From the NCBI GenBank assembly GCA_028485475.2, contig CP144143.1, forward strand, positions 930,001 through 994,000: a stretch of 64,000 bases of DNA, in the 5' to 3' direction. This document shows, piece after piece, positions 51,306 to 52,589 of this stretch. Source of the stretch: Chitinophagaceae bacterium C216 (GTDB lineage Bacteria; Bacteroidota; Bacteroidia; Chitinophagales; Chitinophagaceae). The notes beneath the pieces were generated by a model. It worked only from the letters and a program-made list of their open reading frames with translations. It was not told the origin of the DNA and made no database searches. Position 1 is the first letter of the stretch. Every line of letters starts with the position of its first letter. A program made the position numbers and the translations under genes.

Positions 51306-52298
51306 TTATACGAGATTGTTAGATATAAGGTATTCCGCAATCTGTACCGCATTGGTAGCTGCTCCTTTGCGCAGGTTATCGCTCACAATCCACATGTTTA
51401 AGGTTTTGGGTTGCGTATCGTCTCTGCGAATACGTCCTACGAAAACCTCATCTTTTTCGTGTGCGTTCAGTGGCATCGGGTAGATTTGATTAGCAATATC
51501 ATCTTCTACCACAACACCCGGAGCTGATTCAAGCAGACTTCTCACTTCTTGAAGGTCGAACTCGTTTTCAAACTCTACGTTTACGCTCTCACTGTGTCCT
51601 CCCATTACCGGAATGCGCACCGTAGTAGCGGTAACCTTGATGTTATCATCACGCATGATTTTTTTGGTTTCGTTAACCATTTTCATTTCTTCCTTGGTGT
51701 ATCCGTTTTCGGTAAATACGTCAATCTGCGGAATAACATTCAGGTCAATGGGGTATTTATAAGCCATGGGATATTCGGTATTTTTATTTCTTTCTCCCAT
51801 TAATTGCTCCACAGCTTTTGCGCCGGTACCTGTTACACTCTGATAGGTAGATACGACGATGCGTTTGATTTTATATTTCTGATGCAGCGGATTTAGTGCT
51901 ACTACCATTTGTATGGTAGAGCAGTTGGGGTTCGCAATGATTTTATCATTGGTAGTTAATACATCGGCATTAATTTCGGGTACCACCAATGGTTTAGTGG
52001 GATCCATTCTCCAGGCCGATGAGTTGTCGATTACAGTGGTACCCACTGCAGCAAACTGAGGAGCCCACTCTGTAGAGGTACCGCCTCCTGCGGAAAATAA
52101 AGCAATCGTTGGCTTGGCAGCAATAGCATCCTGCATGCTTACCACTTTATATTTTTGGCCTTTGAAATTGATTTCCTTTCCTACGCTCTTTTCAGAAGCT
52201 ACAGGAATCAGCTCTGTAACAGGAAAATTTCTCTCGGCAAGTACTTCTAAAATTTTGGTGCCTACAAGGCCGGTGGCACCTACTACTGCAACTTTCAT
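51306..52298 (-). CDS. asd: Aspartate-semialdehyde dehydrogenase
   Basis: A 330-residue protein with VAVVGATGLVGTKILEVL at the N-terminus, catalytic Cys126 in NPNCSTIQ, QSVTGTGAKAVEQL near 155 and GGHSESVNVEFE near 232. It reduces aspartyl phosphate to aspartate semialdehyde, the branch point to lysine/diaminopimelate, threonine, methionine and isoleucine. Upstream is a leader with a small ORF and a terminator (52341-52504) that looks like an amino-acid attenuator, so expression is probably raised when aspartate-family amino acids are scarce. Confidence 0.97.
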   Translation of the reverse strand: MKVAVVGATGLVGTKILEVLAERNFPVTELIPVASEKSVGKEINFKGQKYKVVSMQDAIAAKPTIALFSAGGGTSTEWAPQFAAVGTTVIDNSSAWRMDPTKPLVVPEINADVLTTNDKIIANPNCSTIQMVVALNPLHQKYKIKRIVVSTYQSVTGTGAKAVEQLMGERNKNTEYPMAYKYPIDLNVIPQIDVFTENGYTKEEMKMVNETKKIMRDDNIKVTATTVRIPVMGGHSESVNVEFENEFDLQEVRSLLESAPGVVVEDDIANQIYPMPLNAHEKDEVFVGRIRRDDTQPKTLNMWIVSDNLRKGAATNAVQIAEYLISNNLV

Positions 52299-52340: not shown

Positions 52341-52368
52341 AAAAAAAGCCTTCCGATCGACGGAAGGC
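52341..52368 (-). terminator. Attenuator terminator in the asd leader
   Basis: On the minus strand GCCTTCCG (52368-52361) pairs with CGGAAGGC (52355-52348), followed by seven T (52347-52341). It is 43 bases before the asd start codon, so it would cut off asd unless prevented. Its 5' arm can also pair with the segment 52415-52407 (see leader peptide). Confidence 0.82.
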
Positions 52369-52401
52369 CTGTTCAATTTCTTTTATATACGTATACAAAA
52401 A

Positions 52402-52467
52402 TCACAGCCTTCCGTGAAGAACGCGTTTCATCTTTGTATGCTTCTTTATGGTGATGTTGATAATCAT
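52402..52467 (-). CDS. Leader peptide of the asd attenuator
   Basis: A 21-codon ORF starting at ATG 52467: MIINITIKKHTKMKR followed by VLHGRL and TGA 52402. Ile (4), Lys (4), Thr (2), Met (2) and Asn make up most of the first 14 residues, all products of the aspartate pathway. The last codons contain ACGGAAGGC (52415-52407), exactly complementary to the 5' arm of the terminator. A ribosome stalled at the Ile/Thr/Lys codons would leave it free to form an antiterminator, whereas a ribosome at the stop codon would cover it and let the terminator form. The start is only about 6 bases after the promoter element, so it may be leaderless. Translation is not proven. Confidence 0.68.
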   Translation of the reverse strand: MIINITIKKHTKMKRVLHGRL

Positions 52468-52473
52468 GGGTCG

Positions 52474-52504
52474 CAAAAATAGAGCGATGATTTAAATCAA
52501 CAAA
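52474..52504 (-). promoter_or_regulatory. Consensus Bacteroidota promoter of the asd leader
   Basis: On the minus strand TTTG (52504-52501), a 19-base spacer and TATTTTTG (52481-52474) match TTTG-N19-TAnnTTTG perfectly. It lies downstream of the terminator of the previous minus-strand gene, so the leader has its own start site. Confidence 0.85.
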
Positions 52505-52535
52505 ATATTTTTTGATTTCTGCTCGGATTAGTTGC

Positions 52536-52567
52536 AATAAAAAACTCCCGTCTCGGTATACGGGAGT
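52536..52567 (-). terminator. Terminator after the small membrane protein
   Basis: ACTCCCG / CGGGAGT stem (52544-52550 and 52561-52567); read on the minus strand it is followed by TTTTTTATT. It ends the transcript of the gene at 52590-52892, making the next terminator (in the asd leader) independent. Confidence 0.85.
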
Positions 52568-52589
52568 AACTATAACCATTTTATTATGC

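Follow-up and report, generated by a model that had tools for sequence, protein, structure and literature searches.

A candidate ribosome-mediated attenuator with lysine and threonine/isoleucine codons upstream of asd in Chitinophagaceae

A short leader region upstream of asd in the genome of Chitinophagaceae bacterium C216 raises the question of how transcription of this gene is set. Aspartate-semialdehyde dehydrogenase, the asd product, is common to the synthesis of lysine, threonine and methionine, and dapA encodes the enzyme that opens the lysine branch. Peptide-leader attenuation is textbook knowledge for a handful of enteric operons, among them his, trp, thr, leu, ilv and phe, and the original prediction for this locus had proposed an attenuator of that kind. 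The window analyzed here is a stretch of 64,000 nucleotides (contig CP144143.1, positions 930,001 to 994,000), and the genome that it comes from is referred to below as the window genome. In the window, the following features were assigned to the asd locus.

52501..52504, minus strand: -33 element TTTG, from sequence reading
52474..52481, minus strand: -7 element TATTTTTG, separated from TTTG by a 19-nt spacer
52402..52467, minus strand: predicted leader ORF of 21 codons plus TGA, MIINITIKKHTKMKRVLHGRL, with ATG at 52467 and TGA at 52404-52402
52431..52440, minus strand: segment 1, CATACAAAGA, within the leader ORF; partner of segment 2b
52407..52415, minus strand: segment 2a, ACGGAAGGC, predicted antiterminator 5' arm; partner of segment 3
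52391..52401, minus strand: segment 2b, TTTTTGTATAC; partner of segment 1
52360..52368, minus strand: segment 3, GCCTTCCGT, terminator 5' arm and predicted antiterminator 3' arm
52341..52370, minus strand: intrinsic terminator, stem-loop 52370-52346 plus T-run
51306..52298, minus strand: asd, aspartate-semialdehyde dehydrogenase, 330 aa, by NCBIfam, with ATG at 52298
52544..52567, minus strand: terminator-like hairpin of the preceding gene (52892-52590), separating two transcription units

The promoter, the ORF, their coordinates and the nine-base complement that had been claimed upstream of asd are correct base for base, and ACGGAAGGC and GCCTTCCGT are complementary at 9 of 9 positions in the window copy. 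The claim that this is a separate leader also holds, as the preceding gene has its own terminator-like hairpin at 52567-52544. One pairing was absent from the original prediction, namely the helix 52440-52431 : 52401-52391 (1:2b), which is the third helix required by a classical attenuator. The identity of asd is given by NCBIfam model TIGR01296 (441 bits against a cut-off of 324), and its ATG lies 43 nt downstream of the modelled element. A 68-codon ORF in another frame, at window positions 52373-52579 on the minus strand, overlaps the leader unit.

To assess conservation, upstream DNA was gathered for 110 asd loci, 30 of them from 59 related genomes and 80 from genome records. A terminator filter was passed by 47 of the 110, and 46 were kept after removal of L060, which carries an unrelated hairpin. 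The ORF and its complement recur in close relatives, with 28 of the 30 relatives' loci retained and the helices co-varying; the other 18 retained loci, out of 80, include those of Niastella, Flavihumibacter and Filimonas. None of the asd loci of Mucilaginibacter, Pedobacter, Sphingobacterium, Spirosoma, Hymenobacter and Flavobacterium passed the terminator filter, and those on three Chitinophaga pinensis contigs failed it as well. The filter missed L023, L032, L036 and L037, where a leader ORF was found by regular expression or by eye. The conserved layout consists of the promoter, a leader ORF right behind the -7 box, a K-H-T-K-x-T/I-K-K block, a GGAAGG arm at the stop codon, the terminator and the gene.

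After three near-duplicates were set aside, a covariance model, R1, was built on 43 of the 46 asd leaders. At E<=0.01 the model matched 241 of the 294 family genomes, a count that includes false matches; at E<=1e-5 it matched 186 of them (manual count). From 92 model matches, three on the opposite strand and one duplicate (L154) were removed, and the 88 further copies lie before asd (70), dapA (14) and hisG (4), with none elsewhere. Together with the 46 copies that precede asd by design, 134 copies were extracted, 16 of which were removed as identical in sequence. In the window genome, R1 gave 31 matches at E<=10, 30 of which score below the asd match, at no more than 37 bits; the seven of these 30 that were inspected resemble ordinary terminators or hairpins. 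The hisG and thrA leaders of this genome, described below, were found by searches other than R1.

Outside the family the model is less selective, and scores of about 43-50 bits mix real leaders with ordinary hairpins. In the order, 80 of 348 genomes matched at E<=1e-5, 77 of them within the family; the other three matches look like ordinary hairpins or terminators. The class search added 24 matches outside the family, of which 23 were examined (all but G705). With the three order matches, these 26 comprise eight asd cases, all from the class search (G803, G778, G752, G583, G735, G697, G702 and G638), one hisG case (G644), two aspartokinase/thrA cases (G835 and G602), two Met/Cys-rich ORFs and 13 ordinary terminators. 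The G803 element is identical to L039, a member of the model alignment. Two further matches from the phylum search look ordinary. The spread beyond the order is thin but real, with Lys-rich leaders before asd in eight class genomes.

The promoter is part of this conserved layout. Of 114 distinct asd/dapA copies, 103 have a TAnnTT[TCA][GC] box 2-12 nt upstream of an in-frame leader ATG, the box ending 4-11 nt ahead of it, compared with 5.1 expected in shuffled upstream DNA, where the shuffle control used one ATG per copy and the observed count admitted later in-frame ATGs. TTTG, TTGG or TTTC is found 16-24 nt upstream of the box in 99 of these 103 copies, counted without a shuffled control. In Flavobacterium psychrophilum, the -7 box is placed at -12 to -5 in the text of PMC9723704. 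Given this spacing, the window transcript is predicted to start near 52469, with a 5' UTR of about 2 nt, and lengths of 0-7 nt are expected across copies. Such a length is short by the standards of the phylum, in which 5' ends of this kind are a small minority: 3.7% of the 5' UTRs of Bacteroides thetaiotaomicron are reported as shorter than 10 nt (PMC7366714), and leaderless mRNAs are given as 5.5% in F. psychrophilum (PMC9723704).

The reading frame behind this promoter is constrained at both its end and its codons. The first in-frame stop ends between -6 and +16 nt relative to the start of segment 2a in 57 of 59 non-redundant copies, and the same placement occurs in only 1/59 and 2/59 when the two other frames are read. 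With codons numbered from 0 at the model start, 45 of the 53 non-redundant asd leaders carry Lys at codon 8; within this subset, Thr or Ile precedes it at codon 7 in 38 leaders and a further Lys follows at codon 9 in 37. In a base table of 40 copies, which were selected for Lys at codon 8 as the first K of K-K and are not evidence for that Lys, the first base of codon 7 is always A and its third base is nearly free (1.89 bits). Codons 3-5 (His, Thr and Lys), which make up segment 1, are each written mainly with one or two codons, in keeping with a constraint from RNA pairing on this segment. The His of KHTK is written CAT in 28 of 29 His codons, and this His codon is more likely structural, reflecting the pairing constraint. 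Judged by the frame-specific stop placement and the third-base freedom, the leader ORF is real.

Co-variation of the alternative helices was evaluated as the duplex energy of each segment with its own partner versus partners from other copies, using non-redundant copies and 20000 permutations. Across 57 copies, the own partner was better for 1:2b (z -12.8), 2a:3 (z -6.4) and 3:4 (z -10.5), each with 0/20000, and the outcome was similar in a smaller set of 34 copies (1:2b z -7.9). Unpredicted pairings in the 57 copies showed no own-partner advantage (1:2a, +1.1; 1:3, 0.0; 2b:4, -0.1; 2b:3, -0.6), and a control pairing of upstream DNA with 2b was weakly positive (z -1.9, 602/20000; nearest-neighbour p 0.035). 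When the partner was taken from the most similar other copy, the own partner was favoured for 1:2b (p 2.7e-05) and 3:4 (p 3.1e-06). In the same swap, no advantage was seen for 1:2a (0.58) or for 2a:3 (p 0.36), the latter because GGAAGG/CCTTCC barely varies among neighbours. An RNAalifold consensus of a MAFFT alignment of 43 copies recovered the terminator hairpin; 1:2b was not recovered from these 43 aligned copies, probably owing to the shifting position of 2b relative to segment 1 among the aligned sequences.

The segments follow one another in the order 1, 2a, 2b, 3, so that 1:2b crosses 2a:3, and 2a:3 competes with the terminator 3:4 for segment 3. This crossing, together with the common segment 3, gives the three-way exclusion known from classical attenuators. 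For the best 7-nt stretch complementary to the terminator arm, the mean score is 15.3 in the leaders and 6.9 in shuffled leaders (59 non-redundant copies), and at least five T of eight stand at the end of the terminator in 106 of 114 copies.

Behind the terminator, the gap to the gene is at most 70 nt in 90 of 114 copies. No -7 box occurs between terminator and gene in 113 of 114 copies, and the TAnnTT[TC]G box, the one promoter type sought in this comparison, is absent from all 90 short gaps; the window gap before asd likewise contains no second box of this type. These counts bear on whether the terminator could simply close a small RNA or peptide gene, transcribed constitutively as a short transcript, with asd served by another promoter. 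Action of the leader peptide in trans is conceivable, as described for peTrpL of Sinorhizobium meliloti (PMC7298713), but the short gaps free of this box weigh against such an arrangement and the conserved 2a:3 alternative would be purposeless in it; we regard it as highly improbable.

The attenuator reading was pursued further by folding the RNA of 57 copies at the moment when segment 3 has just emerged. The mean probability of the antiterminator, P(2a:3), is 0.17 without a ribosome versus 0.91 when one occupies the best Lys codon, the latter being the best value among several Lys codons with stalls computed on Lys codons only, and the gain exceeds 0.1 in 53 of 57 copies. With a ribosome at the stop codon, P(2a:3) is 0 by geometry, as 2a is covered, and not as an outcome of folding. 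The last Lys codon upstream of 2a starts 12-20 nt before 2a in 50 of 57 copies, so a ribosome held there would mask segment 1 and just free 2a.

In the mechanism that we propose, RNA polymerase would initiate roughly 2 nt upstream of the leader ATG, and a ribosome would load on the near-leaderless RNA. When charged tRNA is ample, the ribosome would reach the stop codon and mask 2a, 3:4 would form, and transcription would terminate ahead of asd. A shortage of Lys-tRNA, and for most copies of Thr- or Ile-tRNA, would stall the ribosome in the T/I-K-K block, masking segment 1 and leaving 2a free to pair with segment 3, which would block the terminator and allow asd to be transcribed. With no ribosome on the RNA, 1:2b would form in most copies and impede 2a:3. 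Any stall before 2a would antiterminate, and the specificity for particular amino acids would rest on codon content alone. That a ribosome-mediated transcription attenuator controls asd, as the original prediction had it, is given a probability of about 0.85 on the strength of the leader ORF with its frame and stop position, the co-varying alternative helices and codons that match the gene; from these features we infer the start site, leader translation, stalling and read-through.

The window copy itself has a reduced codon block, K-H-T-K-M-K-R, and its stop lies behind 2a; in its nearest relatives (L002-L006) the leader ends with KKHP-stop just before 2a. Its P(2a:3) is 0.94 even without a ribosome, which implies a weak 1:2b guard. 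This copy is slightly worn and, according to the folding model, may be less well guarded when untranslated, and it should still terminate once the ribosome reaches the stop codon.

Which amino acids the leader reads was addressed by comparing the codon block with the gene that follows. At least three Lys codons are present in 99 of 100 distinct asd leaders, and among 53 non-redundant asd leaders Lys accounts for 25.6% of non-start residues. Among leaders that align there, Thr or Ile stands immediately before K-K in 74 of 90 from asd and in 0 of 11 from dapA, which have Val (8) or Ser (3) at this position; the naive p of this contrast, 8e-8, takes no account of relatedness. Thr makes up 12.5% of non-start residues in the 53 asd leaders versus 6.1% in 14 dapA leaders, the latter forming only 4 non-redundant clusters. 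All 14 dapA leaders contain 3-6 Lys, as in MQLIKKHTKQVKKHSMYGEG and MNLIKKYSSKKNISEREDA, and the leader is not general before dapA in the family, being recognized by eye at 4 of 30 dapA loci. Upstream of hisG, a His-pattern search found an ORF with three to seven His codons at 28 of 30 loci, including the window genome, where the leader (L263) reads MKRNNIHTHHHFAYF from an inner ATG. A Thr/Ile-rich ORF is present at 13 of 25 thrA loci; in the window genome, the thrA leader (L308) is MQVTYTHTTAIILVVSTTTTTTITTTR and is followed by a long aspartokinase gene with an open frame of 822 aa. Gene assignments were made with NCBIfam, in which asd, dapA and hisG each score above the cut-off of their own model. 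The thrA query, a 523-residue fragment, scores above the aspartate kinase cut-off, and its best model is the bifunctional aspartokinase/homoserine dehydrogenase, at a score below that model's cut-off.

The codons thus track the gene, with Lys and Thr/Ile before asd, Lys and Val/Ser before dapA, His before hisG and Thr before thrA, and within one genome, that of the window, the hisG, thrA and asd leaders each carry codons of their own pathway. Because the codon block changes with the gene, the asd leader would read Lys and, in most of the family, Thr/Ile. From this codon content, we conclude that Lys is the main control codon of the asd leader and Thr/Ile the second. Sensing of Ile, Thr, Lys and Met had been claimed; the counts above favour the Lys and Thr/Ile parts, and Met as a separate input is possible but doubtful. 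The same attenuator might alternatively read Lys alone, with Thr, Ile and Met present by chance or for RNA pairing, given that Lys is the residue common to asd and dapA leaders and that asd leaders outside the order are Lys-rich, mostly with Met or Cys and with few Thr. This is hard to square with the prevalence of Thr/Ile before K-K in asd leaders, with a nearly free third base in the 40-copy table, and of Val/Ser in 11 of 11 dapA leaders, or with the higher Thr share before asd, and we consider it unlikely. In asd leaders outside the order (L281, L283, L284, L285, L286, L290 and L292), Met and/or Cys stand beside the Lys block, for example in MKMICSKKCMKKPVR, replacing Thr/Ile; judging from these sequences, the second input of the asd leader may differ between families.

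Segment 1 (AAACATACAAA) and the terminator are strongly conserved at the RNA level, a pattern that would also suit a metabolite- or protein-binding RNA switch, riboswitch-like, with the short ORF as an accident. Such a switch would not account for the frame-specific stop placement, the third-base freedom or a codon block that varies with the gene. Searches for known RNA families point the same way: the lysine riboswitch (RF00168) was detected in 0 of 117 family genomes, the window genome included, in a search whose controls were positive in 4 of 14 genomes (Escherichia coli, Bacillus subtilis, Thermotoga maritima and Lactococcus lactis), and none of 4227 Rfam families, T-box models included, matched the window at gathering score. 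An RNA switch of this kind appears extremely improbable. A loose-threshold Rfam run gave seven sub-threshold matches. Phe_leader (26.9 bits, cut-off 55), over the terminator half of the L009 element, and DapZ (26.8 bits, cut-off 56), in the L263 hisG leader region, were taken as chance. Two others from this run, to the threonine operon leader RF00506, fall at the 3' end of asd in L001 and at that of dapA in L149, off the leaders.

As a mechanism, the predicted system is the known peptide-leader attenuator of the trp, his and thr leaders. It shares with enteric leaders the promoter, a control-codon ORF, a stop at the antiterminator arm, three alternative helices, a terminator and a gene of the same pathway. 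It differs from them in its genes (asd and dapA), its amino acid (lysine), a predicted 5' UTR of 0-7 nt, the antiterminator arm 2a and guard arm 2b being separate segments, and the lack of an Rfam match at gathering score. The threonine operon leader RF00506 likewise belongs to the aspartate family and combines Thr and Ile codons with a terminator, whereas Lys is the main codon here and no RF00506 match at gathering score was found in the window.

A comparative study by Vitreschak et al. from 2004 reportedly mentions attenuators outside Proteobacteria. In the text of a 2010 survey, the only leader-peptide system outside Proteobacteria and Actinobacteria was the survey's own Firmicutes case (PMC2965389). 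For Flavobacterium psychrophilum, leader-peptide attenuation was proposed before amino-acid operons, with conserved 5' elements before hisG and pheA; these structured 5' regions are from the same phylum, and neither asd nor dapA is mentioned in the text consulted (PMC9723704). Short ORFs reminiscent of leader peptides are also mentioned for B. thetaiotaomicron (PMC7366714). In S. meliloti, the 5' UTR of an ‘aspartate dehydrogenase’ gene contains SEP5, a small ORF that is translated and has six codons for Thr and three for Lys; SEP5 was suggested to be a leader peptide and described as conserved only in Sinorhizobium (PMC10117765). The leaders described here resemble SEP5 in placing Thr/Lys codons before an aspartate-pathway gene; SEP5, however, is alphaproteobacterial, and its account in PMC10117765, as far as consulted, gives no alternative helices. 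The S. meliloti trp leader is given there as a leaderless mRNA (PMC10117765). The lysine riboswitch (L-box, RF00168) likewise controls lysine-pathway genes, in other phyla, and senses free lysine by an aptamer; control by lysine is usually assigned to it (PMC1262725). Apart from the SEP5 suggestion, no report of asd/dapA peptide-leader attenuation or of a lysine-reading leader was found in the open-licence literature, and within the literature searched the new features are the controlled genes, lysine as the amino acid, the reading of two branches and a start that is nearly leaderless.

Taken by its codons and helices, the asd leader most likely senses lysine and threonine supply via the ribosome and so sets asd transcription. 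Beyond this, we tentatively suggest, at somewhat less than even odds, that in Bacteroidota one near-leaderless module was copied among asd, dapA and hisG and re-aimed by swapping the codon block, the asd copy being a two-input sensor (Lys and Thr/Ile) and the dapA copy reading Lys alone, and that this module, along with the Thr leader before thrA, takes the place of the lysine riboswitch of other phyla. If this is true, the absence of the riboswitch would be made good by a Lys-reading leader at asd and dapA across much of one family, and a branch-point enzyme would answer to both branches by codon choice alone. Pairs of asd and dapA leaders within the same genomes would constitute a natural codon-swap experiment, and an RNA starting nearly at its AUG would allow leaderless initiation to be tested cleanly in bacteria that lack Shine-Dalgarno sequences.

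Several other leader-like arrangements were observed in these genomes. On the minus strand of L301 (about 1638-1752) and of L296 (75-189), ORFs ending in ...NRPMMCCMMCI and ...NNTMMCCMMCI precede a GGAAAGCC/GGCTTTCC terminator, as if each were a Met/Cys-reading leader; the next gene in L301 resembles aldo/keto reductases, scoring below the cut-off of every matching model. In the window genome, the hisG leader contains a GTAAGCC/GGCTTAC/GTAAGCC arrangement, and a hairpin ACAACCC/GGGTTGT spans the stop codon of the thrA leader. In the same genome, near position 1748497, L114 contains a sequence that by eye resembles an S-box (SAM) riboswitch.
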